NCBI GenBank assembly: GCA_021018995.1
Contig: CM037588.1
Location: forward strand, 87,518,765 to 87,582,764
Direction of reading: 5' to 3'
DNA length: 64,000 nucleotides
Origin: Chloranthus sessilifolius
Lineage: Eukaryota; Streptophyta; Magnoliopsida; Chloranthales; Chloranthaceae
Shown here piece after piece: positions 13,179 to 64,000 of the stretch. Every line of letters starts with the position of its first letter. The stretch's first letter is position 1. The notes under the pieces are model-generated. The model saw only the letters and a list, made by a program, of their open reading frames with translations. It did not search any database and had not been told where the DNA came from. Made by a program: the position numbers and the translations under genes.

Positions 13179-13191
13179 AAAGAGGGGCATC
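13179..13191 (+). other. Tat-1 polypurine tract
   Basis: AAAGAGGGGCATC immediately before TGTAGACACCC, the start of the 3' LTR. This is the usual site for plus-strand priming. Confidence 0.65.
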
Positions 13192-13691
13192 TGTAGACAC
13201 CCAAATTTGGCCCAAGGCTCGATCGAGACACATTTTGAGAGAGGCGTACCTCTGAGCTTTTGATGGCGTGTATGGAATCCTTAGGACCCTTTTGCAAACC
13301 CTTAAGAATCATCCTAATTCCCTTAGGAACCTTCCCGAACCCTTAGAAACCAATCCCAACCCCTAGAGACCCTTTCGAACCCCAAACCTAACCTTCTCGG
13401 GCAATGGATGAAGAGTGGTGCATCGAGACTAACCACGGACTTCTACTATGATCGAATCTCATACCATTGAAAAGTAGAAGTCGTCAGCTTTCCAACGGGC
13501 TAAAAATCACCCCAATAGGGGCTGTGTACGCAAAGATATGGCGGCCCGAACCTGAGGGGCAAAACTATAATTTTGGAAAAGTCTCCTTAGGGATTTGGCA
13601 CAACTAATAATTGTGCTAGTTCAAAGTGTGAACCCCACTTCGACGAGCCAACTTCCCAGCACTGTGCATGCACTATTTTACTATGCATATT
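13192..13691 (+). mobile_element. Tat-1 3' LTR, left part
   Basis: Begins TGTAGACACCCAAATTTGG right after the polypurine tract. It includes the 'ctttccaacgggctaaaaatc' type U3 block and one palindrome copy (13597-13617). It is interrupted at 13691/13692 by Athila-A; the rest is at 26871-27912. Confidence 0.75.
13597..13617. promoter_or_regulatory. Tat-1 palindrome copy in LTR U3
   Basis: GGCACAACT, centre AAT, AATTGTGCT. It lies about 80 bases, after removing Athila-A, from the second U3 copy at 26879-26899. Confidence 0.55.
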
Positions 13692-13962
13692 TATTAAGTG
13701 GTGAAAAATGCCACTTTTCACCCTATAACCTGACCATTGATAGACCTATGAGCACACTAATAAGCTTTTGTCAAGTGCATTTTGTAGACAGCAACAAAAG
13801 AAGATACTAATGCAGAAAAGCACTCAAGAATGCCTAAAAAGGAGTTATCTCTCAGCACAGGACAAACCCAGTTATAGCACACCAGAGGGTAGCACATCAC
13901 TGAACCCTCGGAGCGTGTGGCTACAACAGGGCAAGGTGAAGGAAGTGAAAACAGGCTGAGAA

Positions 13963-42700: not shown

Positions 42701-44126
42701 GCCCCTTTCATGGGAGTGGATCTTTCGCAGTCGGTGGTCCTGAGTCGGCCTTGGCATTAAGGGAGAGGTTTGCCACGCTAGAGCAGGGCCACCTCAGTGC
42801 ATGCATTCCCTGAGTGTTGGATGCCCTCCATAGGGTGATGGAGCAGACAGGGTGCGCTCCTCGTCCCAATGAGGAGATGTTGCACTCCTTGTCGACCTCA
42901 GTCTTCAAGGCCAGGATGGCAGAGGACGAGATGAGGGCTCAGCTGGCAGGGGCTCAGCGATCTCTGGTGAGTTGGTTTATTGGCTTCAATTGTTAGGGTA
43001 TTCATTTGGTTTCTAGTTATTTTAACATCATTGCTTTGTTTGGTTTCCCTTGTGCTTGCCAGACTAAGAGGGAGAGTGAGGTCGTCAGCCAAACGGTGAA
43101 GATTGAGCTGCTATGAGGTCAGCAGCAAGCTGGTTGAGAGGTAGAGGTTAGCCTACGTTCTGAGATCGACCGACTGGTAAGTGTTTGTATTGATTTGGTT
43201 TTATTAATCATTAGTATCATTTATTTTTGGTGTTTCTGACGCATATGTCTTGTGTCATGTTTGTAGAGGTCAAAGCTGTCAAGTGCTGGGGTATCCGCTT
43301 CAGCATTTGATCCTTCTTTGGCTTCGTCATCCAGTCGGGAGGATCCTATGATAGATCAGCTTCAGGGTGAGCTGGAGCATTGGATGAGCTTCTTATGTCT
43401 TCTGAGTTGTTGCTCCATTTAGTTCATCTAGCTATTTGCTAATATGGTGTTGTATATTTCCAGCGTCAGGTTGCTGAGGACTTTCAGATGAGGGAGGCGA
43501 TAGCTGCCTCTTTATGCCCTAAGAGTTTGGTATAGTATATTGGTTTATGTGCATATTTCATTTATTTTTATTTCATATTATCTAACAAGTTATGTGTTTG
43601 TTTGCTCTTTTCTTGTGCAGACGGTACCTGACTCTACTCCCGAGGCTCCCCCTCTGGAGTCTACTCCTATCCCTACTCAGGGATATTTGGTTAGTGTAGT
43701 TATATTTCTTGCTTCAATTTTTCAGTCGTAACATCATCTGATGTGTCTATTTCTTTGCGTTGTAGGCATCCACATCCAAGGCTCCTCCGGCACCAGTTAC
43801 TAATTCGATAACTACTGCGACGGTCGAGGGCCTTCTTCAGGAGTGCGTTGAGCTGGTATATCATCATTACCTTTGACTTTGTCATATATGTGCTTTTTCT
43901 TATCTTAGTTTTGTGCTTGGATGTAGGTGCGTGAGCTGGAGCAATCGTGCCTGGAGACGCATCGCACCTTGGCTCGTCAGGAGGACCAGGAGATTCCATC
44001 CAACCTCGCTGATCGTCATCTACAGGAGGTGACTGTGGAGTTGTTGGTCAAGTGGCAGACTCGAACGACTGAGTTAAAGAGTGCTCGAGCCGTAGCTCAT
44101 GCTGAGATGCAGGCAACGGTCGAGCT
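42701..44126 (+). pseudogene. PMD-type gene on + strand, fragment 3: seven exons
   Basis: Exons: 42701-42966 (PFHGSGSFAVGG, LRERFATLEQGHL, a stop, LDALHRVMEQTGCAPRPNEE), 43063-43176, 43267-43383, 43464-43529, 43621-43680, 43766-43855, 43927-44126. Lengths of the internal exons are 114, 117, 66, 60 and 90, all multiples of three. The products are coiled-coil-like (GQQQAGREVEVSLRSEIDRL) then Ser/Pro-rich. Two splice donors are broken: AT for GT at 43384 and GG for GT at 43681. The last exon is cut by the Tat-2 LTR at 44126. Matching exons occur in the gene at 57500-60471. Confidence 0.65.
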
Positions 44127-44204
44127 TGTAGACACCCCCATTTTGCCCTCTTGGAATATACAAATTTGTTCGGTCAACCTTTGACCTCGCAACCCTAATT
44201 GAGA

Positions 44205-44678
44205 CCATATGCTGAAACAATAGTATATGGCTGAACACAGGTTGAAATAATAGCTCTATGGCTTAGACCCCATGACCCTAACGCAGGGACCATGCACTGA
44301 AACAATAGTACATGGCTGAACACAGACTGAAACATTAGCTTTGTGGCTCAAATCCTGACATAGGGAGACTATATACTGAAATAATAGTATATAGTCAGAA
44401 TGCAGACTGAAACATTAGTCTTGCATTTCAGACCCCTTTGCCCTAATATTGAGATCATATGCTGAAATAATATTATATGGCTGGACACAGGCTAAAACAA
44501 TAGCTCTGTGGCTCAAGCCCCATGACCCTAACGCGGGGACCATGCACTGAAACAATAGTACATTGCTGAACACAGGCTGAAACAATAGCTCTATGGCTCA
44601 GGTACCAATGTAGGGAGACTATATACTGAAACAATAGTATATAGTCGAAATGCTGACTGAAACAGTAGTCTGGCATTT
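44205..44678 (+). repeat. Array of twelve hairpins with a constant loop (two sets of six)
   Basis: Two tandem 250-bp units, each with six inverted repeats. Starts: 44205, 44236, 44290, 44321, 44367, 44399 and again 44455, 44486, 44540, 44571, 44617, 44648. Every hairpin has the loop GAAACAAT or a close variant, closed by ACT/AGT or GCT/AGC. Stems differ: GACTATATACT with AGTATATAGTC (perfect 11 bp), CCATATGCT with AGTATATGG, AATGCAGACT with AGTCTTGCATT. No coding potential. Confidence 0.85.
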
Positions 44679-44714
44679 CAGACCCGGACAGCCCTGAATT
44701 AAGTGCCTACAACC

Positions 44715-45110
44715 ACGCGCGTAATTAGATTGCATGCCAAACCACACATGAGAAATCCGTTCCCCTTTCAGACCAGTCCCCTTTCCCAGACCACTTCGAG
44801 ACTTGATCACGCACTTCACAGGTCGCGCGTGATCGGATTGAGCGCTTGACCACCAGCGCGCAATTGGCCTACGCCCGACCTAGTCTTATAGTCCTTGACC
44901 CCTAAGTTTTCTCGATTAAACACTTTAGAACATATGCTTAATCAGATTGCGCACCCCACATTGGGCACACAATTAGTTCTAACACTGGTAGGACTAGGAA
45001 ACTTGCTGAGCAAGTCAGTTGGTCGCTCACTGAGTCGGTGATCGATTCAAAGCGATTAAGCACCGGGAGACCGGCACACAATTCGATTAAATGCCTAAAA
45101 TAGGGCGTTT
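44715..45110 (+). promoter_or_regulatory. GCGCG-type motif series in Tat-2 U3
   Basis: CGCGCGTAATTAGATT (44716), TCGCGCGTGATCGGATT (44823), AGCGCGCAATTGG (44855), then weaker GATTGCGCACC and GGGCGTTTAATTAG forms, leading to the TATA box at 45125. Confidence 0.55.
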
Positions 45111-45124
45111 AATTAGAAAAAAAC

Positions 45125-45133
45125 CTATAAAAG
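45125..45133 (+). promoter_or_regulatory. Tat-2 LTR TATA box
   Basis: CTATAAAAG, about 20 bases after the last GCGTTTAATTAG motif. Confidence 0.55.
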
Positions 45134-45299
45134 ATTTTTTTCTTAATTCGCCCAAGAGATGCTGACAATTTTCGAGAGAACGGATTTTTTTTGGGATTTC
45201 AAAACCAGAAAACCCTGAGAATGAATGCATAGAGCAACTTAGCCATGATTTCGAAATTCAAGCTTAGAATCATCGGGATTTCTCTCCGCAGCCTCGACC

Positions 45300-46560
45300 T
45301 TAGGTAAGAATTTAACCTTTAATTTCTGATCGTAGCTCTTAGCTTTTAGACGTAGGACTTCTCTTAGTTTTTAATTATTAATATTAGTTCGCAGTATTAG
45401 ACTGTAGCACTTTTTTTTAGACCGTAATCTCTTATATCTAGTTCTAGTTCTTCGTTTCTAGAACCAGCCCTTAATCTGACGGTCTAATTTACCGACCCTA
45501 GGCTTTAATTTCATTCTAAAATCTTAATTTTCAGACCTATCATTAATCTCTGGATCTAGTCCTTAGGTTCTAGAACCAGTCCTTAATCATACGGTCTGAT
45601 TTTCTAATTTCGGACCCGAATTCAAGCCTAGAATTTTAAAGTTTGGTTTTAATTTCTTAATTTGATACTTTTAAAAAAATCCAAATATTATTTTGGTTTT
45701 TTATAATTATAGTTTCTCAATTTAATTCATAATTATTACCCCGAAATTGACTTTGAAAATCCAAATACTATTTTTATAATTAAAATTTTAATTTATCATT
45801 AATCTCAGCCACCCGATTTGCCCAAGGGAGCTTACGAAGGGTACTCGGGAACGGGGCCAATCCTCCTTAGCATTGCTGGCCCAAAACCCCCCCTTTTTTT
45901 AGAATTATTTTGTCGCTTTAATTAGAATTAGAAAATCGAGTCCATAATTTTCTTAGATTTTTAGTATAATTAATTTGCATGCTTTATTTTGATTAGATCC
46001 TTAGAATAATTGCTTTGATTAGAATTCTATTAAAATTAGTTCCTTTATTTTAATTAGATAATTCTAGTATAATTAGTTTATTTGTTTTAACTAGATTTTT
46101 AATAAAATTAATTCATCGCTTAGATTTGAGTACTAGTAAAATTAGTTCCCTATTCCAATTAGAATTCTGGTAGGACTATTATAATTGCTCTAATTAGAAT
46201 TTCAGTCAAATTATTATATTCGTTTTAATTAGAATTTCAATACAACTAGTATACTTGATTTAAGTAGAATTTCAATACAATTAGTATACTTAATTTGATT
46301 AGAATTTTGATATAATTAGTATACTTGCTTTACTTAGAATTTCAATATAATTAGCATGCTTGATTTAATTAGAGTTTCATTAAGAATTAATATACTTGCA
46401 TTCCTAGTACAATTAGGAGACCGATATTAATTGAACTTTTAGTAGTATTAGGACACTATATTAATTAAAATTCTACTAGTATTAGGAAACTAATATTAAT
46501 TAGACTTCTAATAGGATTGCAACACCTAAAATTAATTAGACTCCTGACAAAATTAGAATA
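45300..46560 (+). repeat. Repeats in Tat-2 U5/leader
   Basis: A ~110-bp direct repeat (TTCTAGAACCAGCCCTTAATC at 45456 and its copy at 45567). From about 45900 to 46560 there is a minisatellite of roughly 35-45-base units built on TTAATTAGAATTTCAATACA and ATTAGTATACTTG. No gene in this stretch. Confidence 0.65.
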
Positions 46561-46963
46561 CTAAATTAACTCACTATTATAAATTCCCACACAACTAAAC
46601 TCACAATAGAATTGAGAAATCTAAACTGATTAGAACTACAATAATAACAGGGAAAGGAAGGGAAAATTAAACTATCTAAATTATAAGAAGATACATTGCT
46701 ATTGGTATTCGCAGGCTGACGATTCAGTAAAGAAGTAACCCACACCTGCTCTAAAACGTGATCATTGATGTGTTGCAGCATCGTTAAATATCTGCAGCTG
46801 GCGATCGCAACCAACTAGGAATCTTCATAGAAGGCCCCCCCCCTTTTTTATTTTAACCTCCACTATTCCAAATGTCGCATCGCTAGAGTCCACTTGGACA
46901 GAATTAGAGCCATTGATTCAATGGGGACCGAGAGGAACCCAGAAAAAGCGTGCACCAATAGAC

Positions 46964-46980
46964 TGGCGATCGTGATGGGA
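46964..46980 (+). other. Candidate Tat-2 primer-binding site
   Basis: TGGCGATCGTGATGGGA, starting with TGG as expected for the complement of a tRNA 3' CCA end. The tRNA is not identified. Confidence 0.45.
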
Positions 46981-47071
46981 CCCTTTTACAAACTTTTTCC
47001 TAGATAGTTAGTTTTTATCTTATTTCCCTGCCTTTCTTTCCTTCACATCATTTAGATCCCCTTTCAAATAT

Positions 47072-48832
47072 ATGAGTCTTCGTCAAAGACTCGAGATGTC
47101 TGGCATACGAACAGTGAGTTTAGGAGGCCCACCATTGTGGGGATATCATAACAACCCCATGTACGAAGAAGAACCACTTTATAATTCTGGCCTATGACAA
47201 CTTGAGTTTAACATGGTTGGCGAACAAGAGAATCCCTTCTCTACCGCACACACCAGTAATAATCATAATGGGAGAGATGGTAACGCTAGATAAAACCTCA
47301 CTGCTCAACAAATCATAGAGCTTAGTATTCAAAGAATACAGAGAGGAGATAACGACTCTGAGGAATTGCTTCGAGGATTGGCTGTCGTATACGAAACCAT
47401 TAGGTCACGACAATTTTCAAAAGAACAAGAGCGACAAGAAAGGCCACCTCCTACCCCAAGCACGGTGACAGCCCGTGCCACACCATTGAGACAACCTGCT
47501 CACACATTCTTCAACGATGACTCTCTCGACAAGGTTCGATCACGGGTCGCTCCAAAAGATAGCACCATTAAGATCGAAGATCTCCCTAAAATGCTCAATG
47601 AGTACATGGCCAAGAGAGAGCGCCCCGGTCACTCATTCAGATTCAACAAATCTTGTCGAGACGTCAAGTTTAACTTACCAATAGGATTATAGTCATCAAA
47701 ATTTACCAAATATAATGGCACAGGAAATCCGAATCATCACTTGGCCCTCTTTTGTAACTATTGTCGGCCCATACGTAATAATCAATGACTTCTCATTCAC
47801 TATTTTCAATGCCTATTAGAAGGAGAAGCTTTAGATTGGTTTGCAGGACTCCCGCTTTATAAGATAGAAACATTCGACGAATTAGTCGGTCAATTCCTAG
47901 ACCAATACAAGCACTTAATTCAAGAGAAAGTCAGTCTCAGCAATATGATGGTGGCCAAGCAAGGGCCCGATGAAGAATTTACTGACTTCGTCGCCAGATG
48001 AAGGAAACTCGCTGCCAGGACCGGCACTTTAATGAAAGAGAAGGATTCGGTGCACATTATCATCGATAACACTAGAGAACCGCTAAAGAGTGCACTTGTC
48101 ATAAGTGATTGCCCTGACTTCACTGCACTCCACTCCCGAGCATCCCGACTAGCGCGACACATTAAAGGTGGAGACCTTGCTCTATCCATAATCACATCGA
48201 AAGTAGGCTCTTCCAGTGAATAAAAATTGAAAAACAATAAGAAAGCCTCAGGAATAGAGCAGGTCAACAATATTGTCAACCAAGGATAAAACTCTAGTAA
48301 CGAGAATTTCCAACCACGAAACTTCGGGCAAAATCAAAACCAACAATGATACACCAACCAAAACGAAGGCATTAATCAACAAAGATACACAAACCTAAAC
48401 CAAGACCAGAATCAGAATCAGGGCTAATATCAGAATAGAAATCAATATCCCAACACCTACCAGAACCAGAACATGACGCAGAATCAATCGGCCCACGCTC
48501 CAAACTATGATAACGTACCTCCACCGTAAAACTTCAACCCAACTAGAGGCCTCTACCAATCGAGACGGGAACACTATCCCCCTTTACTGGATACGATTTC
48601 CAACATCTTCCATCTCCTCAACACTCAGAGCCTCCTCCAATTCTTGCAAGAAAGACCTCGCCCATGGCTGGCAAATCTAGACTATAGTAAATACTGTGCC
48701 TTCCATAAATACATGGGACACAACCTAGAAGACTGTTGGGTCCTCAGGGACGTAATCTATGACATGCATGACCGAAATCAGATCCATTGGAAAGCGCTTA
48801 TGAAATCTAACCCTAATAATAACCAACCCTAA
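47072..48832 (+). pseudogene. Tat-2 gag
   Basis: ATG at 47072 (MSLRQRLEMSGIRTVSLGGP). The middle has FTKYNGTGNPNHHLALFCNY, LEGEALDWFAGLP, ELVGQFLDQYKHL and EFTDFVAR, the usual plant gag capsid block (47700-48010). An Asn/Gln-rich stretch lies at 48280-48500. A zinc-finger-like YCAFHKYMGHNLEDC (C-x2-H-x4-H-x4-C) at about 48689-48736 is followed by DVIYDMHDRNQI. Several stops (for example after 47186, 47690, 48000, 48223) break it. Confidence 0.8.
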
Positions 48833-49900
48833 CAAAATTAAATGATCGTTAATAACCCCATGCCCAACCACAACCAAGCAACACCGACTCAGGTCACCAC
48901 CGTAGATCTCACCAGTCGATCCTCCTTCCAGCATTCCACCTTAATCACTCGCATTCAACCCTCCAATACTTTCGCCATATTCCTTCACCCCCACATCCCT
49001 CGGCTTTGATCACTCGCATCGTCCCGCTGAGCCCTCCTCCCTATCCAAAATTCACTCAAATACGAGTTTATTCCTTTAAGGCCAGGAGACCATTCCTCCA
49101 TAGTCACCCACCAGAACCTTCGACCCCTCCAATTCCTGAACCAATGCCATTACCACTCCCTTTGTCCAATTCTGAACCCGAGTACGGAGATCACATTCTT
49201 CAAATTGCTGCCCAAATTGTTGCATGGGTAGAAAGTGTCACCCGAAAGACTCCAAGCCGAGAGAATGAAACAAAGACTGAGTGTTTGTTGAACGTAGAAG
49301 AAAGTGAGCATGAAGAACATCCCGACCCATGCGAGACACTGGTCTCTGCTTTCCTAGAAGAAGAGGATTACACATAGTATCTCCCACCTTGGAGTGGCAC
49401 CATTCAGATACGCACTCTGACCTTAAATTTCACTCACTTCACAAGAACATTCGCGTCGAGCCACGCCGGGTTCGGTCAACAACCGACGTGCCTGATTCTC
49501 AAGTCAGGAACCAATTATCCACCTCTGCCTTTCCCTCGAAGTAAGGATTTCACTAACACACAACCACTAGAGGGGAGCGTAAGAGAAAGAGAGTTTAACT
49601 TGCCACTCCCACCTCATGCTATTCCTCCCCCAATTCTCGCACCTCAACCAATCTAACCACCTACACCCAAGGCCCATTAGTTAGGCGAAGAAATGGCACT
49701 CGAGCCAGCACAAGAATATGACCTTCTATGACATCTCCAAAAGATCTCGACCTAGATATCCATACTAAAACTCATCAAAAAATTGCTTGACCATCACCGG
49801 TTATTGATAAGGACACTTGAAGATACACAAGTAGATGTGGATAAAACATTAGATAAGCTTCATCAAATCACCTTGGTCATGGCGCAACCTCCAGCGTTCA
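48833..49900 (+). pseudogene. Tat-2 gag-protease linker
   Basis: Pro-rich open stretch 49006-49377 (SPPPYPKFTQIRVYSFKARR, then acidic EESEHEEHPDPCETLVSAFL). It then degenerates, with LHQITLVMAQPPAFTFIDAD just before the protease. No domain recognised. Part of the polyprotein. Confidence 0.5.
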
Positions 49901-50400
49901 CTTTCATAGATGCAGACATGCCTAAAGAGTCAATCCGCGGGGCCCCATATATCTTACAATCATAATTAGAGGTTTCTCCGTACCCCATGCGTTGGTTGAT
50001 ACGGGAGCAGGACTCAATATTTGCCCTCTCACAATATTAAAGACGCTCAAATACATGGAGTAGGATCTCAGGCCCTCGACACTATCACTCATAGCCTATG
50101 ATTGATCACATCGCTTTATCAAAGGAGCTATTATACTCTAGGTTTACCTTGGACCTATAATGAAAGACGTTACCTTCCATGTTTCTGATTCTGTTAGTAC
50201 GTACAATCTTATTTTAGGAAGAAAATGGCTGGAGTCAATGAAGGCCGTCGCATCCACATGCCATCAATGGTCAAATTCCCATATGAGGAATCCATCGTCC
50301 GTATATACGTTGATGCACCACTCCAGGAGATGGATACTGATTTCGCGGCAAGTATTCCAACAGCCCATGATTCTGTATTGAACACGGGCCACATTTAAAT
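49901..50400 (+). pseudogene. Tat-2 protease
   Basis: Retropepsin-like: GFSVPHALVDTGAGLNICPL with the active-site Asp-Thr-Gly at 49998-50006, then DLRPSTLSLIAYD, FIKGAIIL, VYLGPIMKDVTFHVSDS and YNLILGRKWL. The catalytic triad is intact, but stops flank it on both sides and the frame changes near 49965. Confidence 0.78.
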
Positions 50401-51916
50401 GACTCGAATCCTTAATGAGACAACCATTGCGAAAGTCCGTCCCCCTACCCCTCCTAGTTCTCCCTCAATGCGTCAACAAAAATAATGAGGAGAGAGTTTG
50501 ACCCAGACCTCTGCAAACTTTATGACATCAACTCTACCGCGACAAAAGGGTGGGATCTTATGTACCAACTCGGATGCGTCCCCACACTGGACTCGATAAA
50601 AGCAAGGTCATGTAGGACCTGTCATCCTAATAAAAATACGCAAGCACATAGGGTTAGGTTATCAATCGGATGGTCCACAAGCCGACTTGCTCCCTACCTC
50701 ACCAAAATGGTCTCTATATGACCACTTAGTCTATGGAACGACTGAGAAAGTGGATGTACCAAAGCAGATGGAAGTCTCCTTCACTAGATCCCAAGAAATA
50801 GAAATCAAGCGAATGACTAAAGTATTCAATGATTTAACTAATTTGAATGACGATATTGATAAATCGCTCAAAGGAGTCAAACCCTTGTTTGACACTAAGG
50901 AGCTTACAGAAGAAAGAGAGAAAGAACCTCTAAAACTCAAACCACGAGTAAAAGATTAAGAATCCACTGATGATGAAGATTTTCATATAGCAGCCTTGCA
51001 AGAGGATGAAGATTACCTGCACTCAACATGGGAAGATGACACCCCTCAAGAGGATTTTAACTCGTATAGCATCCGCCTCGGCCTTGGCCTTGGGGGATGA
51101 GAATGCCCTTGGGAGTCCCCTTGTATCACTTACCCATACCAACCCCGCTGTAGGGCATGCACCAGCATATTAGAGCGCTTCGCTAGTTGGACCCAACATT
51201 CTATGATAGAAGAATCGAATCACTCCAACCTTGTGACTACCGAAACAAGTAATGACCTACCTGCTCGGCCACCGACACAAGAAGCAGAAAATCTCAATAG
51301 TCATCTTGTTGACCCAAGGGGAAACACTCATGCACCCTCATAGAGTTTGAAGAGAAACTTGAACTAGACACTTCTTCTTCCCCAGATGCGCCACAACTCC
51401 AAATACTCTGGAAATCTCTAGAGGAAGAGCGGCAACCTCCCCCGAGTGATGACGAGGACTACTGGATAGACCTCCCGACACTCTAGTTAGGAGAGCAAGC
51501 TAATCTAGGACTTCAAGCACTATCAAATCAAGAAGATAAATTCGATACCATCTTCGACTCTAACCTAGAAGGATGGGAATGTCCTTGGGGATCTCCCTGC
51601 ATTTCTCACCATTATCAACTTTGCTGCCAAGCATGTGTGCTCATCTTAATATATTATAAAGATCAAGGAAAAGAACTCGCTACCCCTGAGGATCCTTAGG
51701 AGATCACCCTCGGTGGGAAGAACAACCTTATTACAACTCAGAGGAGGATAATTCGATCGACTATGATCTCCAAAGTTTCTTTGAAGAAGAAGCAATCAAT
51801 GTGGTAGAAGAAATCCGAACGTCAGTGCCAGTGTCGCCAACGTCGCTTATTCAAAAAATCTTGTCAGATGAGGACTCAAAAAAAAAAATGCCAAAATCAC
51901 AATAAGTCCATGTTTC
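50401..51916 (+). pseudogene. Tat-2 protease-RT linker with two Cys modules
   Basis: Holds RLGYQSDGPQADLLPTSPKW and a charged 90-codon open stretch (50687-50959). Two copies of the module W-E-C-P-W-x-S-P-C-I-x3-Y-Q-x2-C-x-A-C follow, at about 51095-51183 and 51571-51660. In the first copy the leading Trp is a TGA stop. Function unknown; long linkers between protease and RT are seen in Tat elements. Confidence 0.5.
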
Positions 51917-53480
51917 TTGAAGAATCACCTGAACGGCCCCAGCAGTTGTCTCTCTCCCTCAATTAGAGGAAGCAACTCTCCCGGCACCGCCCCTTGTGGC
52001 GACCTACCCTGTACCATATTTATTATCAAAAATCAAAAAAATAGAAAAAGAAAAAGACTTCAAAAATTTAGAAATACAAAATTCGAAAAAATCATAAAAC
52101 CTCAGAAAAGAAAGGGAACCCTCGTCCCGAATCAAATTTGCGGCCAACAAGGAGACTTTTCTCCTAAGATTTCTATCCCATCTCCCGCACAAGGACGCAA
52201 AGCATCTAGGCTCAACAACAAGCCAGTGATCATACCGGACGAGATACTTTGTAACTTTGAGAGAAAAATTAGTAGTCTTGACCTTCACCTTACCAAAGAT
52301 CTCTCAGTCATAGATTACGCCGATGAAGGGCTACCTCTTGCAAAATCGAATCCCCAGTGCAGCAATTTTGTAGTATATGAGCTTACCGAGGATGAAGAAG
52401 GAACACCAGTCATCGAGGAGACACCAGACTTCCAACGGGTTATCAAGTTTTTCGACGAGCAAACCCAAGCAGTCTCCAAACCCATAGAAGACCTTAACTT
52501 TGGCACTAAAGAGAAATCCAAGAAGCTAGTGATTAGCGCAACGCTCAATGCCAAGGAGTGTCAACAAATCGCACAAGTCCTACAAGAGCACCTCGATTCC
52601 TTTGCGTGGTCCTATGAGGATATGCCTGGTTTAGACTTAAGTTTAGTAGAATATCGCCTCGTCTTAGAACCCGATACAAAGTTCGTTAAGCAGAAACTCT
52701 TTAGGATGCACCCACAAACTGCCCTTCAAGTTAAAGAGGAAGTTGGAAAATTGCATAAAGCCAAATTCATCCGAGTCATCCCCTACCCCAAGTGGGTCGC
52801 CAACATAGTACCTATTGCTAAGAAAGATGGCAAGGTATGGGTTTGCATTGAGTTCTGAAACCTCAACCAGGCATGCTTAAAAGATGACTTCCCACTTCCA
52901 CACATTGACACTCTAGTCGACAACACTGTTGGACATGAGATTCTATCCTTTATGGATGGTTTCTCTGGATATAATCAAATTAGCAGAGTCCAACCAAGAG
53001 AAGACTTCTTTCACCACACCATGGGGAACATACTATTACGTCGTCATGTCTTTTGGGCTCAAGAACACAGGAGCCACGTATCAATGTGCCATGATGGTTA
53101 TCTTTCACAATATGATGTATAAATATGTAGAAGTCTACGTCAATGACATATTAGTGAAGTACCAAGTGCGAGTAGGACATGTTGAAGCCCTCCGACTGGT
53201 ACTACAAAGAGCTAAAAAGTATCACCTGAAAATGAACCCAAAGAAATGCGTCTTCGGAGTCACCTCCAAAAAATTACTCAGTTTCATAGTCAGCAAGCGA
53301 GGGATCGAAGTTGACCCTGCAAAAGTCAGAGCCATTCTTGAGATGCCCCCTCTCAGTAATATTAAAAAATTATGAGGCCTAATAGGAAGATTGCAATTCA
53401 TCAGAAGATTTATCCCCCAACATTCAGACAAATGAGATCCTTTCTACAAACTACTTAAAGGAGGAACTTAGTACAAATGG
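51917..53480 (+). pseudogene. Tat-2 reverse transcriptase
   Basis: 313 open codons from 51917 with LNAKECQQIAQVLQEHLDSF, AWSYEDMPGLDL, KQKLFRMHPQ, EVGKLHKAKFIRVIPYPKWV, NIVPIAKKDGKV. After a TGA the frame continues FPLPHIDTLVDN and SFMDGFSGYNQI (about 52950), then shifts to TPWGTYYYVVMSFGLKNTGATYQ. The catalytic box YVDD reads YVND: first Asp to Asn at 53142-53144. FIVSKRGIEVDPAKVRAI and GLIGRLQFIRRFIPQ follow. Confidence 0.85.
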
Positions 53481-54400
53481 GATGATCAGTGTCAGCAAGC
53501 CTTTGACAATATCAAGAAGTACCTCCTTAATCTGCCAGTACTATCACCCCCAGTTCTCGGAAGACCCCTAATTCTATACCTCTCAGTGAACGATAAAGCA
53601 ATGGGAGTGATTTTGAGACAATATGAAGAAGACGGCAAAAGAGAGGGCTATCTACTACCTCAGTAGGATGATGGTCGAGTACGAATGAAAATACATTTTG
53701 ATGGAGAAGACCTGCCTCACATTAGTGTGGGCCTCAACCAAATTATGACACTACTTTAGAGCACATAAAGCCTGAATGTTCCCTCTGAAGTACATATTCG
53801 AGAAGCCCGCAACATCAGGAAAGATCGCTCGCTGGCATATGCTTCTGTAAGAATTCAATATCACATACGTCACGCAGAACTTGATCAAAGGACAAGCAAT
53901 CGCCAATTACCTCACAGAGCTCCCACTCTCGAGCAATGAGCCCATACACGCGGATTTTCTCGATGAAAACCTACTCACGATTCCTAACGAAAAGCCCAAT
54001 AAGACCTCATGGACCCTTTATTTCGGCGGTGCTCTAAATCATAAAGGAAAAGGCATCGGAATAGTCCACCTAAGCCCAGAAGGAGTAGTCATACCTAAGG
54101 CTTTTTAATTAGACTTCTTTGTCACTAATAACATCACTGAATACGAAGCTTTTATAGTTGGACTACGAGCAGCATTACAATTAGGGGTTAAACAGTTAAA
54201 AACCATCAGTGATTCAAAGCTAGTAATCTCGCAAGTTATAGGAGAATGGAAAACTAAGGAAAGGAGACAAATAACATACCTAAAAGCCACTCAATATTTC
54301 GAAAAGAAATTTGAAAGAATCTCTTTCACACACATCCCTAGATTAGAAGACGAGCTCACAGATTCCTTAGCCTGTTAGCTTCGGTCACCAAATACCCATC
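53481..54400 (+). pseudogene. Tat-2 RNase H and second (archaeal-type) RNase H
   Basis: First RNase H: LILYLSVNDKAMGVILRQ, then heavily frameshifted to about 53880. Second RNase H: SWTLYFGGALNHKGKGIGIV, where the FDGA aspartate is glycine (GGC 54025-54027), NNITEYEAFIVGLRAAL, SDSKLVISQVIGEW, ERISFTHIPRLEDELTDSLA. The dual arrangement fixes the element as Tat lineage, matching Tat-1. Confidence 0.82.
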
Positions 54401-54689
54401 AGCCAAAGTACCAAAATATTTTACGTCGAAAAACTGACAGTACCCCGCCCATGAGGTAGCATGGACTATTAAGAGAGAATTACCAATCCTCCCCACCAAT
54501 ACAGGACCAAACGAAGTAATCTCTCTGAAAAATCATGTCAACACAGAAACTGAAGTTGCTATGTTCAGATTTGAGAAATCATCGACCAATGATGGATAGC
54601 CGTGGTATTTCAACATCTGAAACTTCTTAAAGCATCAGCAAATCCCTCCATACACCACAAAGATCGAACGGAAGACTATAAGAATCCGA

Positions 54690-55860
54690 TGCGCCCAATT
54701 CTGCATACTCGGTGAAATGTTATACAAAGAAGCCTTCACTAAAGGAGTACTACTACGATGGGTCACAACTGTCAAAGGACAATACATCATTCGAGAAGCA
54801 CATGCCAGTACTTGCTGAACCCCTTCCGGTAGACAGAGGCTCGTCGATCAAGTTACACGACAAGGCTACTTCTGGCCGAAAATGATCAGAGATTGCCACC
54901 TCTACATCCAATCCTGCAAGCAATGCTAAGAACATGCCGCACTCATCAAAGCTCCATCAGTTACATTGAACACTATGACCTCACCGTGGCCATTTTCGAT
55001 GTGATCATTCCTTTCACAGACACAGTTGGGAACACTCACAAGCACGTGTTCATACTTACAGCAACCGAATACTACACCAAATGGGTAGAAGCTGAATCCT
55101 TTATCAAAATCACCGCTTCAACACTCATAAGTTTTATCATTTAGAATATCATCACTAGGTTTGGAGTACCTAGGATGTTTGTCATCGACAACAGACCATA
55201 GTTCATCGCAGAGAAAATGAAGAAGTTATGTAAGAAGTACGGCATCGATCTACACCACTCATTACCGTTCTACCCTCAAGGAATGGACAGGCATAAGCTA
55301 CGAATAAAATATTGATTAAAATTTTAAAGCACACAAAAGAAATAAGCAATGGAGTCAACTGGCCTGAGCGGCTATCAAAAGCACTCTGGGCCTATAGGAC
55401 CTCTATTCATACTGCCATTGGCCAAACTCCCTACCTCCTTATCTACAGGATGGAGGCAGTCCTACCATATGAGATACAAGTACCATCCTTAAGGATTCAA
55501 CTTGATGATGATCTATCCTTAGACGAGAGGAGGATTGCCCTACTCACGCAGCTAGAGCAACTCGATGAAACACGTCTAAGGGCAGCTGATCACGCTCAGG
55601 TATATCAGGGGAGAATGGCTAGAGCTTACGATAAGAAAGTCCTTGAACGAACCTTTAAGATTGGAGAATTAGTCTTAAAGAAAATCATGCCTTCCAAACA
55701 TGCGCATTCGAAAGGAAAACTAAAATCGAACTAGGAAGGCCCTTATGTCATAACAACCGCATACCCTAGAAATGCATACAAACTGGCGAATGAGGATAGG
55801 AAAGAACTCCCAAGCCCCTTGGAACGCCATGTACCTTAGAAAATACTATCCTTAGCCCTG
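54690..55860 (+). pseudogene. Tat-2 integrase
   Basis: RQGYFWPKMIRDCHLYIQSC and KQC of the zinc finger. Core: FDVIIPFTDTVGNTHKHVFI, TEYYTKWVEAESFIKITAST, then FGVPRMFVIDN. 140 open codons (55312-55734) give LSKALWAYRTSIHTAIGQTP, VYQGRMARAYDKKVLERTF and LVLKKIMPSKHAHSKGKL, followed by a stop in place of Trp before EGPYVIT. The polyprotein ends near 55860. Confidence 0.82.
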
Positions 55861-57499
55861 TGATCATCACATCTCGTGGTTAAATATTTATACTTATCAC
55901 CCCCGTAGTTGTCACAACCCATTCATTGGTCATACACTTTTAATTCTCATAATATCCTTAAGACCTTCGATTTGTCGCCCACTTTTTTTTCCCACTCGAG
56001 CAATCTGATTAAAGAACTAGTGACTTACCTAACCTCTTCCAAAAGCATAAGTAACACTCGATCCTCATTTACCTTTCTCCCGCCATTGGAGGAGATGTTA
56101 GAGTAAAAAAAATGAAGATGTTAGGTTCAATCAAAACTCATTATTCTTGTGCTAGTAGGATGCTTTCAAAAAATACCTTTACATATCAAAAAGCGGGTGA
56201 GAGCATTACGACGAATGAACAAGCCAATGAGCTCAAGGAAGTATAAGCAGGCCGTGAGGACATCTCTGATGACTTTACTAGAAGTGTATAAGTAAGCTAC
56301 GAGGGCATCCCTGATGTTTCCATACTACTAGATGTCGTTGTAAGGTGGCGAGAGGAGGACAAACCCCTGCTAACCATAGAATGTGAGAATTTGATGGTAC
56401 TAAAACATGACGGAGAAGCTCGATCATGCCATCCCGTATCCCTTTGAGAAAAAGTTTTGTTATTCATCCCTTTTAGAAAGTGTTAGTTACAAACTATTCC
56501 CCACATCACTGAGCCTTACCTCCCTCTTCTATATTTATTTCGGACAATAAATCAGAAGCCTTATAGGATGCTCCTAGAAATGAAACTGAAAACCGATGAA
56601 TGACGATTGATGCAATCACCCATTGTACTTACCATACTTCTCTCTGATGACCGCGGGATAGGATGACCACCACCCTAAGATAGACCATGTATACAACTGA
56701 CCTAATCAAAATGACCTCCCCCCCGGTTCGATGACAGTACTGATGAGCTTTTCTTCAAAACTAATTCACCAAATGCCCATGACTGCATATAGACCCAAAG
56801 TGCTCATCTCAAAACCCAAAAAAGCTCCATTACATCTTGACGCTGGGGCATTTTTTGGATTAGAAAAAGAATCATATCAGAAGCACCAGCTTGTCCACAA
56901 AGAATACGAGGAACGACGAAGCTACCATTAGGAGAATGCTACCGAAGATGCTATACTGCCAATTCTACCACGCTTCTACACTGGGGCATCATTTTTTTAA
57001 ATATTTATTGTTGGTTCAGTTATTTTCTTTCCATGTTGCATTGTTTTCATTTCAAAAAAATAGAAAAAAAAAAGAAGAAAAAGAAAAAAAAAAAGAAAAA
57101 AAAAAAAGAAAGAAAAAAAGAAGAAAAAAATATCCACCTTTATTACCAGACCTCGGTCTGAGATACTCACCCCCCTTGACAATTAGCAAGGGAGAATTAA
57201 ACTATTGATAGCATTACCTTCAAATGTGTAGATACGAAGCAACCTTCAACCATCACCGGGACAGCTCAGGAAGCATCCAAGTCCCAATGACGCTCGACGG
57301 CGCCACAGAAATTAAAAAAGGTAAAAGTAGACGCAAGAGGTAACTAAAAGAAAAGGAGCCAATCAGGAACATCTAAACCAAAAAATCTATATATATACAT
57401 CAAAATTTTCTTTTTATTTTACACTTGTCACTAGGGGACATCCCTCCTATATATACAACGTACACATGCAATGAATATAAAAAATACACACACGCACCC
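55861..57499 (+). other. Tat-2 spacer after integrase, no gene seen
   Basis: Contains two CACTGGGGCA/CGCTGGGGCATTTTTT blocks (near 56841 and 56980), a Tat 3' region hallmark; a ~55-bp imperfect duplication near 56240 and 56290; and a long purine tract of A with scattered G at 57052-57130. 57420-57499 is the 3' end of the minus-strand gene. No LTR start (TGTAGACACC) is found here. Confidence 0.55.
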
Positions 57500-58831
57500 C
57501 TACTCCCTACGCTGCCACTGGAATGAACGAGTATTGTTGTCCCCAGTATCATCCGCTCAGTGATTCATAGACTGATCCACTGAAAACAAAATCCTAGCAC
57601 CCGGAGTCCTCGGAACCTTTAGATGATGAGGCCCCGCCACAGAACCCCCCTCACTCGCCTGATTAACAGATCGCCTCGATCACGGATGAGGAGGATACCT
57701 CGCAAGAACCTCACGAATAACAGAATCCTCAGGAGCATCACCCCTGACATGATCACGAGATGTGTGATGAGACTGCCGAGTCGAGGAACCCATAGCCCTT
57801 GACTCCGATCCACCAAGCTGACTAGACAGCCTATGTATCCCTCACTCACTCCTCGCCAGACGATACTGCAGCTAATCTAGGGTCACCTGCATATCTGCCT
57901 GCATTGTCTGACTCGCAACCTCTAATGCCTCAGCGTGAGTCTTTTGTGCAGCCATCATCTCAATAAACTGGTCGTCGTGACTCTGCATCTCCCTAAGGAT
58001 CCGTCGCGCCTTGGGAGTGGCACACGCTGGCATCGCCTCTAGACGTGCCTCCTCAAGCTGACGAACCTGCATAACCACACCAAGTCAAAGAAAACTAATA
58101 TATACATGAACACAAAAAGAAACTTTAAAAAGGAAAGAATTATACCAAATCCAACCTCTCATGCAGAAGTCACCCAACCGTCTCAGCGGTCACTGAATTG
58201 GCAGGAGGCACGAAAGGGACAGCAAACGTAGGCGGCTGCAACAAGAACAAACAAATACTTCATAAAAATATTACGATGACAAATGAACCACGAACACAAT
58301 AACTAAAGCATACCTGAGTAGGGATAGAAACAGACCTCTGAGGGGGAGCCTCAGGGGCGGAGCCCGGAATAACCTGCATAAAGAACCAAACAAGCCAACA
58401 CAAGATATGTCAGAATAAATTAAAAATGAAATAGCCTAAACAGAATTACTCCACACCAAAAAAACTATACCTGGCTATCGAGATGTAGAGAGGTAGCAGT
58501 CGCCTCCCTCATCTGAAGATCCTTGACGACTTGACACTGAAATGCCACATGATATTAGTAAACTATTAAGAAAGCAAAACAATAACACCCAACAAACTAT
58601 GATAATTACACAAACGAGTCAAAAGATTGAATGGAAACTTACCCAATGATCTAGCTTGGCCCGAAGCTGAGCCATGGCTGGATCCTCTCGACTGGAGGAA
58701 GCAACTGAAGATGGATCAAATGCTAGAACAGGGCCACCATCAGCGAGCACGGCTCTCTATGAATAACAATGAATACATCAGTTGGCAAGCTCACAATGCT
58801 AACAATTAACACAACCTAGGAAGACACCTAC

Positions 58832-59338
58832 CAATCAATCAATCTCAGATCGCAAACTGGCCTCCACCTCTCGGCCAGCCTGCTGCTGACTACATAACAA
58901 GTCGATCATCGTCGCATGACTAGCGACCACGGTCTCCCTCTCAGACTGTCCAAGATAAAAAAAATGAGACACCACAACTATGTTAGAGCAACTGAAAGAT
59001 AAGTCAACATAATGCATAAACAATTAAACCAATAAATCAACTCACCATGAGCTAACGAGTCTCAACTAGCTAAGCCCCCACCTACCAATCAATCAATCTC
59101 AGATCGCAAACTGGCCTCCACCTCTCGGCCAGCCTGCTGCTGACTACATAACAAGTCGATCATCATCGCATGACTAGCGACCACGACCTCCCTCTCAGAC
59201 TGTCCAAGATAAAAAAAATGAGACACCACAACTATGTTAGAGCAACTGAAAGATAAGTCAACATAATGCATAAACAATTAAACCAATAAATCAACTCACC
59301 ATGAGCTAACGAGTCTCAACTAGCTGAGCCCCCAACTC
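58832..59338 (-). repeat. 254-bp tandem duplication containing one 114-bp exon
   Basis: Copies at 58831-59084 and 59085-59338 differ at only a few bases (for example CGTCGCATG against CATCGCATG). Each holds a complete exon with its own acceptor (GGACAG) and donor (GTAGGTG). Confidence 0.88.
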
Positions 59339-59658
59339 ATCCTTCGCTACCCTAGCCTAAGAAACTGAGAGAGCTAAGGAGTGCAGCATCTCCTCATCTG
59401 GACGAGGAGCACACCCCATCCACTCCATCGCCCTATGGAGGGCGTATAATGCCCCCCACACACTCTCCGTGAGATGGCCCTGCTCCAGTGCAGCCAACCT
59501 CTCCCTCAACGCCGACGCCAACTCTAGCCCACCAATCGCAATGGAACCACTCCCATGGAAGGGACATGTGAAGAGGTGCCTGCCACCTAATGCACTAAAC
59601 CATCTCAGACACTCCCGGGGCGTTCGCCTCGTCATGCGCCCCTGTAACCCTAGTCCCC

Positions 59659-59818
59659 CCAGGAGTAGGCCCTTCTTTGATGTGGACATATGGATCCATT
59701 GTTTTGATAGGGTGGAGAGGATCCACACATCTCGAGTGGTACGGCAGCTGGGGCTTGCTCAGAGAGTCCCTCCAGATATTCGCCACAGAGTGGCAAAGAG
59801 GATGACCGACCCTCCTGG
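59659..59818. other. Micro-inversion bounded by 7-bp inverted repeats
   Basis: CCAGGAG at 59659-59665 and CTCCTGG at 59812-59818 flank 146 bases that read FFDVDIWIHCFDRVERIHTS and RVVRQLGLAQRVP on the + strand, while the exon on both sides reads on the minus strand. In the paralogue (28198-31463) the same peptide is collinear with its neighbours. Confidence 0.75.
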
Positions 59819-60640
59819 CATAAACGAAATACAAGCGACAAAAAAAATAAGACTAACACACACCTATGACAAGCAGACCAAGAGCTAAAAGTGAATAAGG
59901 TATACCCAGACACCCATTAACAACTCATACCTAATACGTAAAATATGATAAGAACAGCAGGATAAAAACATGACCTATCTCTAGATGCCATCATGATGCA
60001 TGAGTGAGCATATGACAAATGATTAATGCAGGTTTGACATAAATTAGAAGGGTTTCCAAATCCTAATAAGCCTATGTCTTAACCTAAATGCCTAAGAAAA
60101 TGAAAGAACTCTTGCTCACGAGTACTTACCCGGCCTTGAGCGAAGAAATCCTCCAGCAGGAAGTTTCTACGATCTCGATGCTCCTCACCCTGATGCTCCT
60201 CAGCCGCATCCTCAACTCTCTCACCCTCAGGTATCTGACCCTCAACCCTCTCACCGTCCTCCACAGCTACACCCTGCTCAATCTCAGGCACCTTCTCCCT
60301 GACCTCCACCTGGTCAACCTTCAGTACCTCCTCTCTAGCCACCTCCCCAACATCCGCCTCCCCGATGACAATGTCAGTCCGAGCCACAGAGGTCTCACCT
60401 ATCTCCCCCATCATCATCCTCTCTAACCCAAAAATAGTAAGAGAAGGTCTACCACCACCCTCAGACTCCATCCTAGATGAAAGAGCTCAAAAAATTGAAA
60501 AGAATGGAAGAAACGGTGCCTAAAATGGACGGCTGGATCGCAAGATATTACGAAAACATGAAAACTCAAGCACAAAGATACAAGGAAACTAGAGAATCTA
60601 GGACCAAAATGGATAGCGCGGAAAAATAAAAAATTTTGAA

Positions 60641-60740
60641 CTATATATAGAACACACCCAAATCGCGCGTGTAAACTCACACGTGCAACTGAATCGCGCA
60701 CCACTGTTCCCGCACTTAATCTAGATCAAACGCTCGTAAT
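60641..60740 (-). promoter_or_regulatory. Promoter-like segment of the antisense PMD gene
   Basis: CTATATATAG at 60641-60650, 170 bases before ATG 60471 (minus strand). Directly upstream are GCGCGATT (60660 region), GCACGTGTGAG and GCGCGATTCAG (60690 region), similar to the GCGCGTAATT series of the Tat-2 LTR. Confidence 0.5.
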
Positions 60741-61439
60741 AGGGCGTGCAAAAAGGATTGTCACCCTCTCACACTAACCCCACCGTCTGGTTGTAAGCCG
60801 CCCACCAGATGCGTAATCATATCTATGCCCAAACTAGCGTGCGTGAATGCTAACAGTCACTTCAATAGTGACTGGCCACCACCATAATCCTGTACTCTAA
60901 GCACTGCGCTTGACTCAATTAAACGACCAGAAGCCGGCGCTTAATGACCTTCCAACATTCTGAAACACACGCAATTTGTTTTTACGCCCGAAGCAAAGCT
61001 CGCAATTTCCCAAAATCCATAAAAATATGCCCAAAACAGCCGGCCCAAGCCTAAATTGAGAAACTTCTAACACTCGCTATCAACCCCAAACTACGCTCAT
61101 GTTAAGATCAATCCAAAAACACTCCTAACTTAAAGAATAAACCAAACAAAATTAAACTAAAAGGTGCCCAACATCGCTCACACGCTCCAACTAAGACCAA
61201 ACTAAACAAACGAAAAATGCCCCCATCATTTATATACTCCAACTATGCCCAAACTAAATCAAAACAAAAAAATCTCTTAGCATGCCCCGATCCAAAATAA
61301 ATAAACTAAATCAAACCAAACTCAAACAAATAAACCTCGCACTCAAAACAAGTCAATTAAGCTACAAAGTCAACTAAACCAAAAGTTGCTAAATATAAAC
61401 AATCACAAACGAAATTAAAAACACATAATCACTTCATAA

Positions 61440-63000
61440 ATAGATAAAATAATTACATAATACACCGAGGGCTTACCCTCTGAATATACAACTTGAAATA
61501 AGAAACTTAAAAAAACCAGCACGTTTAGGCAAGCCCGAATCCGGATTTATTCGGGAAACTAGAAATCTTGGAGAAGCTCGGAGGGGGAAGCACCCTGAAC
61601 GAATTCTAACTGTGATAACCTCTTTCCCTTGCCTCGAACCGACAAAAAAGATAGAGTGGCTCATAGAAAGCCACCCAGGACCTACGGGACCCACCCTTAG
61701 AAGCTCACCTTAGGAACCATAAAAAGAAGGAGCAACTAACACTGACTCCGCAAAGCCTACCAAGGAAAAATAGGCACCGGTCACGAGAACTTTGACCCTG
61801 CCTTATCCTTAGGTTTCCTTTTTACCACCTTTTTCTCCTCCACCCCTTCCCTTAGCATGGTAGCAATTCAACTGCTACCCTGCATTCCCAATCCCGTTCA
61901 TTCCTAATAATCCACTCAATAAACATAACTCTTCGGGTTCAGTACCTTAGAAAATAAAAGAGAAAGGAAGAAAAGACATCAACAATCAAAACAAAAATGC
62001 CCCAGGACTTCTAATTCTAAAATTCAAAACAACAAGAACTCAAAGCTTTTAGCTCACACATTTATAAACTATACCTCCTAAATGACCAAATGACAAGTGT
62101 CACACCTTTAAACCCTTCCAATCTAATTAAATCTAAAGCAAACACATACCCCTTTGAAAGACCACAATCCATGACAAACCTAGATGAACCAATAATCACA
62201 CGGCACATACCCCTTCAAGGAAACATAGATCCAAAGCAAAGTAAACAAGCCAATAAGATTTAAACACTTAACACCTATCTAGAACTTTTGAAAACTCACC
62301 TTTTTAACAAGTGTCACCTCAAGTCAAACAAAAGACTACAATAAAATACCTTAAACCAGACAAATCCAACAAAAAAAACTCTCTAAAATGAGATCCCGAC
62401 ATGTGAGGGGCCAAGAAAAATGCCCAACCAAACCCATCGGAACCAAGTAAACCCCATAAAAACAAACTAATCTCAAGCTAAATTAAATCCTAAAATAAGT
62501 CAAACAATCAAAAAAATCCAACTAATCCGTTAATAAGTTTAAGCGAATAAATGAGCACAATAAAAAAAATGCCTCCTTATTTATAACTCAAAAATTTTTA
62601 CAAGTATCACCAGAGGCATACCTCCTGAATTTACAATCCAAAACGAAAACCTAGAACTGAACCTACAACCCAAAATGAAGACTGGGTCAAAACTGAGACA
62701 GAGCGGGGAGCAGATTCCGCTCATAGCGTCCAATTGGAGGCTTCAGGGAGGACTGGTTTGGAAACACATCCCTCCACTTTTTACTCTTTCCTCTTCTGCC
62801 ATCTTCACCGCCTCCGCCTCCGCCTCCTCAACGCTGCCTTCATTGCTCTCTAAAAGGGATCGATGTGAAGACTAACGCCCTCATTCCCAATACCGCCCAT
62901 TCCCAGAATAATGCTGCCTCCAAGCATCACATCAGGGTGAAGATCATGCGAAATAACGAATATAGGAAGAAATGGCATCCCAATCGGATGGTTAGATCAT
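61440..63000 (-). repeat. Two paralogous ~500-bp segments resembling the PMD gene 3' end
   Basis: On the minus strand 61960-61440 and 63000-62570 share GGGATTGGGAATG / GGTATTGGGAATG, a GGAGGAGAAAAAGG-type stretch and a closing 'aggta-gcctc-ggtg' block before an AT-rich tail. The real gene has the same closing block at 57440-57420 (GGAGGGATGTCCCCTAGTGA). They look like copied transcript ends. Confidence 0.4.
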
Positions 63001-63100
63001 CCGATATCACTAAAACACAAATTTAAGAACACAAAATATCTAGAAAAGGTCAAAACTTGAAACTAAACTAGAGAATGAAAAAACAAATGAAAGCTCTCTA

Positions 63101-63260
63101 GCTTATATAGAGTACAGACTCAATCATGTGCCAGAGCACATGCATTTAACTCAATCACGCGCTAGGCACACTACACATAATCCAAAACATGCGCTCTAAT
63201 CCAAGCGCGTAATGAAACCATCGCCTGTGCCAACGGCACGACACTTCGATCACGCGCACT
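63101..63260 (-). promoter_or_regulatory. Second antisense promoter-like segment
   Basis: TATA box CTATATAAGC (63101-63110, minus strand) preceded by TGATTGAGT, GCGCGTGATTGAGTTAAA and further GCGCG forms up to 63260. An ATG with a 26-codon reading frame follows near 62920. The downstream gene appears truncated. Confidence 0.4.
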
Positions 63261-64000
63261 CTATAGACCACATAATCGCTTTAAACGACACACTGCAGTT
63301 GCGCAATATGAAAGGTCACCCGTACACTGACCTGGTGACACCTCGATCACACACTACGATTATAGCGCATATTCCGATCACACACAAACTCACATACGAG
63401 TAAACAGCCCCTCAATCCTGAGATCGCATGCCCTAAAATAGGTGCACAATCATATTGAGCGACCTAAAGCAGATGCACAATACCTTACTTCGAACAAAAT
63501 CTACACCCTCACACCTTTTTAACACATCGCGGCCAAAATTCACCTATCCCATCGCGTACCCTTACATGAGAAGGAAGCATTGACAGCGTCCCCATGCCCC
63601 CTAGCGATAACATGTACACACACGATATCATCTCAATATCTAGTCCCATCACAATAAATTAGCCGTGCCCTCATGTCCCATTGCGAGACGCCAAGAGCAA
63701 ATCTCCCGAGAACGCGAGCATGCCGCCAAAAAGCTACGCTCAGCCAACATCCCATCCCAAACATCACTACCTGAGAAGCTCAGACCACACCTGTCACACC
63801 ACATGAAAAGAGGGAAAGCTTGATCATGTCCCATCACTAAAGCAAAGAGCTCCCTCTCTCCCGAATTGATCACCACATCCTCCAGGACTCGTCCAGCATG
63901 CAACCAAAGAAAGAAAAGTCACTAAGGTCCCATCATGACATCACTTCTACAAGACATTACAGCACAACTGCCAAGCCCTGCCATAGCAGACCTGAAGAAA

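Follow-up and report, generated by a model that had tools for sequence, protein, structure and literature searches.

The hairpin array and its element

The window analyzed here is a stretch of 64,000 nucleotides of Chloranthus sessilifolius DNA that includes much of a gypsy-type element of ~24 kb. The 5′ LTR of the element (~2.83 kb) extends from 44127 to ~46960 on the forward strand, and the partner 3′ LTR (L074:1354-4191) is in the genome sequence that adjoins the window, outside the window itself. The element is flanked at both ends by GAGCT, and AAAGAGGGG is positioned directly 5′ of the 3′ LTR. The hairpin array begins 74 bp inside the LTR, at the head of U3; the location at the start of U3 proposed in the first-pass annotation thus is borne out by the LTR start at 44127, with which GAGCT and the 3′ LTR agree. 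A TATAAAA motif, which by motif alone we take to be the likely LTR TATA box, is situated such that the array is ~440-920 bp upstream of it. The two LTRs are ~9% divergent and therefore the element is old. The features are as follows.

44201..44690, + strand: whole hairpin array, comprising two units of 250 bp, each made up of three ~85-bp modules with an A and a B hairpin apiece (tandem repeat, cores, folding)
44205..44230, + strand: hairpin 1A
44236..44260, + strand: hairpin 1B, weak in the window copy (-3.1 kcal/mol)
44290..44315, + strand: hairpin 2A, stem with one C-A mismatch
44321..44345, + strand: hairpin 2B
44367..44396, + strand: hairpin 3A, perfect 11-bp stem
44400..44426, + strand: hairpin 3B
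44455..44480, + strand: hairpin 4A, CT...AG closure lost in the window copy (-3.4 kcal/mol)
44486..44510, + strand: hairpin 4B
44540..44565, + strand: hairpin 5A, weak in the window copy (-2.7 kcal/mol), C-A mismatch
44571..44595, + strand: hairpin 5B
44617..44646, + strand: hairpin 6A, perfect 11-bp stem
44650..44676, + strand: hairpin 6B
45126..45132, + strand: TATAAAA (sequence motif)
52929..53375, + strand: reverse transcriptase piece (Pfam RVT_1)
57500..60500, - strand: region of antisense ORFs situated after pol and before the 3′ LTR, of which only short pieces are open (ORF list)

The reverse transcriptase of the element matches the Pfam family RVT_1 (PF00078) with an E value of 1.6e-13. 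Copia elements match RVT_2, not RVT_1. The plant names among the 120 listed of 293 homology matches to the reverse transcriptase include Cryptomeria, Taxus, and Victoria. The last pol ORF is separated from the 3′ LTR by ~9.5 kb, and the antisense ORF region that follows pol recalls Tat elements, of which the element is likely to be a member. Five antisense ORF pieces, the region being open in short pieces only, matched no Pfam family at an E value of 0.1, Transposase_28 (PF04195) included. Like the Tat, Retand, and Ogre elements of a published survey, the element is of gypsy type, contains antisense ORFs and tandem repeats, and has a long region downstream of pol (PMC11963269). The Tat identity given in the first-pass annotation fits and is likely. 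In dimensions, the Retand elements of that survey, which are recently active ones only, have LTRs of 315-1,194 bp and a pol-to-3′ LTR distance of 2,933-6,566 bp (PMC11963269), as against ~2.83 kb and ~9.5 kb here. Two further observations concern the element and its surroundings. Inverted similarity of 70-74% was detected between 43458-43684 and 58310-58542 and, judged by this similarity, the element is placed in or beside part of a related element that resembles the antisense ORF region. The antisense ORF region also contains a 254-bp tandem duplication with 98% identity (58825-59334) that seemingly is younger than the divergence of the LTRs.

Two 250-bp units with six hairpins each and a constant core had been described, and this layout was confirmed by a tandem period of 250 bp (87% matches over 2.0 copies) that encloses a shorter period of 85 bp, and by twelve cores with 0-2 mismatches at 44212, 44242, 44297, 44327, 44376, 44407, 44462, 44492, 44547, 44577, 44626, and 44657. 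All hairpin types share the core, which is asymmetric and reads CTGAAACAATAG or nearly so. The purine-rich loop is GAAACAAU, which possesses a single cytosine (GAAACAAT). The CT...AG closure attributed to all hairpins applies in general, with the exception of 4A which has lost it in the window copy, and the perfect 11-bp stem noted earlier is present twice, at 44367-44396 and 44617-44646. The six different stems that had been counted reduce to ~5 types, 1B and 2B being one type and unit 2 repeating unit 1. A bulge of one base interrupts the stem of the B hairpins. Rfam models gave no match over 44000-46900 at E values up to 1. A scan of the window for hairpins with the exact loop also returned no match, but missed the array itself, the criterion being too strict. 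A kissing-loop arrangement was considered and dropped, as the loop complement ATTGTTTC is absent from 44127-64000 and L074:1-4191.

Folding and pairing of the stems

The array folded as RNA of the + strand gave a z value of -6.2, with none of 100 shuffled sequences folding as well, compared to -4.8 for RNA of the - strand and -4.5 for the array folded as DNA. The window was also scanned in 261 segments of 490 nt with 15 shuffles each, one segment having been set on the array deliberately. When z was calculated with a common spread, the array ranked first of the 261 (-7.2) and the next two segments overlapped it. With the spread of each segment itself, the segment at 45326 was slightly ahead of the array (-8.1 vs. 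-8.0). This AT-rich segment, 45326-45815, is within the same LTR, and its z was -8.1 with its own spread and -4.9 with the common spread. The raw folding energy of the array is unremarkable within the window.

The dependence of the fold on the correct partnering of arms was assessed by exchange. In each unit, the assignment of every 5′ arm to its own 3′ arm was the best of 720 permutations, with the swap of arms between 1B and 2B nearly tying. In 20 LTRs collected independently of the array, 212 hairpin sites had a mean energy of -9.33 kcal/mol with their own arms vs. -5.13 kcal/mol with swapped arms, and -6 kcal/mol or lower was reached by 169 of the 212 own-arm sites vs. 35% of swaps. The hairpins are kin by descent and these swap tests accordingly do not yield probabilities; likewise, the number of hairpins is not the number of events, and the paired changes described below correspond to ~3 divergence events.

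Stem pairs were numbered outward from the core (k), the bulge of the B hairpins was placed for best pairing, and states were taken from 28 copies. Five predicted pair positions are altered on both sides between hairpin types. In most of the 28 copies, the A-T pair at k4 of the A hairpins is replaced by G-C in 2A and 5A, and the C-G pair at k7 by T-A in 3A and 6A; in the B hairpins, A-T at k6 is G-C, and C-G at k7 is T-A, in 3B and 6B. The fifth position, k2 of the B hairpins, is G-C in 1B, 4B, and 5B, A-T in 3B, and mostly G-T in 2B and 6B. Five of six changes of the 5′ arm were compensated, for which P ranged from 0.0008 to 0.006 by the assumed share of transitions in a simulation that scattered the 3′ changes, with arms typed from the 28-copy pair table.

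A pattern left open at k4 and k7 matched 6,344 hairpins, and the 100 listed ones that were examined, all on contig C1, showed the same tendency. Position k4 was A-T in 69, G-C in 17, G-T in nine, and A-C in five, and k7 was C-G in 55, T-A in 31, T-G in 10, and C-A in four, such that the bases were matched in 86 of the 100 listed hairpins at each position. Pairing nevertheless is incomplete. The C-A mismatch at k3 is uncompensated in 26 of 28 copies of 2A and 25 of 28 of 5A, and the list of 100 hairpins has it uncompensated in 26. Four of the six A hairpins have A-C at k9. Moreover, other (pyrimidine-purine) inner pairs around the exact core were rarer than in a reversed control (10 vs. 42). 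The inner pairs are not free and a freely changing stem was not seen. A G-U signature that might single out RNA is weak: among the 100 listed hairpins, wobble pairs numbered 19 vs. nine for A-C hybrids, and the fixed pairs include 18 G-T vs. two C-A, with 12 of the 18 G-T apparently being the shared core. The core is nearly constant, positions 3-5 and 7-10 being unaltered in 207-212 of the 212 sites at which cores were taken at up to two mismatches.

Occurrence and divergence of the array

A search with the array produced 6,281 candidates, 40 of which were scored. For a sample independent of the array, a search with part of U3 (44720-45240) yielded 40 matches, and the sequence upstream was fetched for 20. 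All 20 of these LTRs hold at least six cores with up to two mismatches, at 6 to 14 each, so that the expected presence of the array in other members of the family was upheld. Two exact cores 18-48 bases apart were matched 5,675 times genome-wide vs. zero times for the reversed pattern, these being overlapping matches with several per array. The number of 250-bp units ranges from ~1 to 3, with three in four of 28 copies. A pattern scan of viral contigs produced 23 single matches, and a pol scan revealed no relative. The array is not universal to LTRs of this kind: a second LTR head in the window (13180-13800), which has the same start (AAGAGGGGCATC followed by TGTAGACACCC at 13192), contains no hairpin core.

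Covariation among related LTRs had been set in advance as the test of the fold, and failed to emerge. Among copies within one hairpin type, seven cells were changed on both sides vs. 4.9 in shuffled alignments, a value reached in 101 of 500 shuffles; this test employed local pairs from RNAalifold, which represent other helices for 1B, 2B, 3B, and 4B and none for 5A. In the hairpins proper, whose pairs were tabulated without a shuffle control, C-G had decayed to wobble (T-G) in 76 cells and to C-A in 81, which is alike. When the whole array was analyzed, RNAalifold paired the units with each other because they are repeats. The changes among copies of one type look like neutral decay in these alignments. 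Since the copies show this decay without covariation, any constraint on the fold, if real, belongs to the active phase of the family. The proposal of selection on the fold thus survives in part: own arms surpass swapped ones and double changes separate the types, but no covariation is evident among copies, and the fold, if it was maintained, was so during that phase.

Column conservation in the array appears to exceed that in most of the LTR, but is without weight as the copies were picked by similarity to the array. Divergence was partitioned in six elements with both LTRs. Post-insertion identity within the six LTR pairs was 0.892 for the array and 0.861 for the rest of U3, and identity between the elements was 0.870 and 0.803, respectively. 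The excess of between-element over within-pair divergence, which accrued in the active lineage, was 0.022 (0.012-0.033) for the array and 0.058 (0.037-0.079) for the rest of U3, and for transversions only was 0.0033 and 0.0177. The six elements were found via the array, a bias that favors it; in the sample fetched via U3, whose bias is the reverse, the array units and U3 resemble the window to about the same degree, as judged by eye. On these alignments, divergence in the active lineage is likely to have been slower in the array than in the remainder of U3.

The divergence data bear on the possibility that the array is a functionless by-product, in which a chance palindromic repeat was duplicated and its arms were matched by quasi-palindrome correction through template switching during replication or reverse transcription. 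Such correction would produce paired changes without selection, the range of ~1 to 3 units per array indicates active turnover, and tandem repeats are common in elements of this type (PMC11963269). However, correction should perfect the arms, whereas most of the 28 copies retain bulges, G-T pairs, and the C-A mismatch, and the process leaves both the nearly constant core and the likely slower divergence of the array unexplained. We consider an origin of this type unlikely.

The loop cytosine, known systems and candidate roles

The loop cytosine at 44218 and its 11 homologous positions were compared between the LTRs of individual elements. A C/T difference was present at 34 of 61 scorable sites compared to 23 of 136 other CAA sites of U3, six of 34 CAA sites at other points of the array, and 194 of the 563 CG sites in U3. 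The loop cytosine is a hotspot of C-to-T change after insertion, above CG sites and ~3-fold above other CAA sites. The sample consists of seven LTR pairs, of which the window pair is proven by the duplication and the others were paired by strand and by the distance between them. One of them, the seventh, is an incomplete pair that adds loop sites (4/6) and no control sites outside the array, and without it the count is 30 of 55. States counted by hand were CC 27, CT 35, and TT 15, close to the 25.7, 37.6, and 13.7 that independence predicts, as though no trace of the state at insertion remained. Thymine occupies the position in 78 of 212 sites of the 20 array-independent LTRs. Differences at the loop G also were frequent (24/80), but not above those at CHG sites (74/258 outside the array). 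The share of T by hairpin varied from 3 to 15 of 28 (1A, 3/28; 3A and 1B, 15/28; 6A, 10/28) and did not follow stem strength. The hotspot has two possible readings: exposure of the loop as single-stranded DNA with faster deamination, or special methylation of the loop cytosine. It points to DNA over RNA.

The array might act at the DNA level as a cis-regulatory element, its dyads being protein sites in the duplex or extruding cruciforms upstream of the promoter. The closest parallel is in the LTRs of Sireviruses (Ty1/copia), which contain arrays of palindromes mostly with a CGG-CCG core (12 of 13 listed motifs) and a variable middle (PMC2829016). In both cases many short dyads that can form hairpins are clustered, in variable copy number, within the 5′ half of the LTR, ahead of the TATA box (PMC2829016). 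The same source recognizes these arrays by at least eight copies in the LTR and linker, most in the upstream half, and twelve cores are present here in front of a TATA box assigned by motif only. This shared position in upstream U3, the loop-cytosine excess, as would follow from a loop that is intermittently single-stranded in DNA, and the folding of the array as DNA speak for a DNA-level role. Nevertheless, the element is of gypsy type (RVT_1) and not copia, and the organization is reversed: the Sirevirus palindrome or stem is constant and its middle varies (PMC2829016), whereas here the asymmetric CTGAAACAATAG is the constant part and ~5 stem types vary with paired changes in the arms. A protein bound to a 12-mer duplex gives no reason for paired arms, and the hotspot, whose strength does not track that of the stem, may instead be due to targeted methylation. 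A DNA-level function is judged rather unlikely.

In maize, structured regions of Sirevirus LTRs have been proposed as a source of small RNAs (PMC10760457). Dicer-like processing of the hairpins could in the same manner seed silencing by the host. Windows of 110 nt were folded at every fifth position with the cut-off of -40 kcal/mol applied to maize (PMC10760457), and 10 of 28 copies had at least one window below the cut-off. By contrast, none of 384 windows on either strand of the window copy reached it, compared to eight of 1,162 elsewhere in the 64 kb. The stems of 7-11 bp are short, and a target of the host should be lost rather than kept. A role as small-RNA source appears improbable.

Other known systems are more distant. 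The arrays of Tat, Retand, and Ogre elements are located between pol and the 3′ LTR in the survey mentioned above, but here the array is inside U3; the main text of that survey is without the terms hairpin, inverted, and stem-loop, and palindrom- occurs in its reference list only (PMC11963269). Hepatitis B virus has dispersed packaging-signal stem-loops that share an RGAG loop motif (PMC7612645). The likeness is in manner of working only, namely, many stem-loops that display one loop motif; the viral stem-loops are non-homologous and dispersed, whereas the present array is tandem and is known from sequence alone. A constant-loop hairpin array in a gypsy LTR was not found in a literature search of openly licensed papers, Sireviruses being nearest. 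The earlier statement that no described family of the kind was known needs restricting to the loop-constant form in a gypsy LTR, as palindrome arrays occupy the same place in Sireviruses (PMC2829016). Dyad arrays in the upstream LTR already are known, and the inside-out form in a gypsy element appears to be undescribed in the literature searched.

The interpretation that we favor, tentatively, is that the array serves its gypsy-type (Tat-like) retrotransposon as a putative multivalent site of stem-loops, acting in cis and read in U3 RNA. A constant asymmetric loop on a varying but paired stem is what a factor that reads the single-stranded loop would select. U3 is at the 3′ terminus of the genomic RNA, and the transcript would thus contain the array once. 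The hairpins would present the purine-rich loop GAAACAAU in open form to a candidate loop-reading protein, possibly the Gag of the element or a host RNA-binding protein, at a candidate step such as packaging, export, or stability, and the tandem copies may add avidity. As stems would need only to pair, they could drift by compensated steps, perhaps through G-U. To our knowledge, the cis-acting RNA signals of plant gypsy retrotransposons, whether for packaging, export, or dimerization, are hardly known. The ~12 repeats per LTR and the thousands of genomic core matches provide ready natural material on which structure, binding, and covariation could be tested.

A more doubtful, composite history would accommodate the hotspot: the array of constant loops and covarying stems may have evolved as an RNA-level recognition device in U3 of the active element, and the same hairpins may open in the DNA of dead copies, scarring the loop cytosine, such that thousands of fossil LTRs would record extrusion. 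If the hotspot truly reflects extruded DNA, the single-stranded exposure of DNA hairpins would be readable from sequence alone in a plant genome.

Palindromic sequences of other types also are found in the window. The second LTR head at 13180-13800 holds the palindrome GGCACAACTAATAATTGTGCTA. The palindrome GGTGCAACTATTAGTTGCGCC and one of opposite sense, GGCGCAACTAATAGTTACGC, are located at ~7675-7750 where they fold together, and they resemble the palindrome found near 13600 in that LTR head. The segment 21806-22295, which belongs to another of the elements in the window, has many GATAGG/CCTATC repeats in both senses and folds well.
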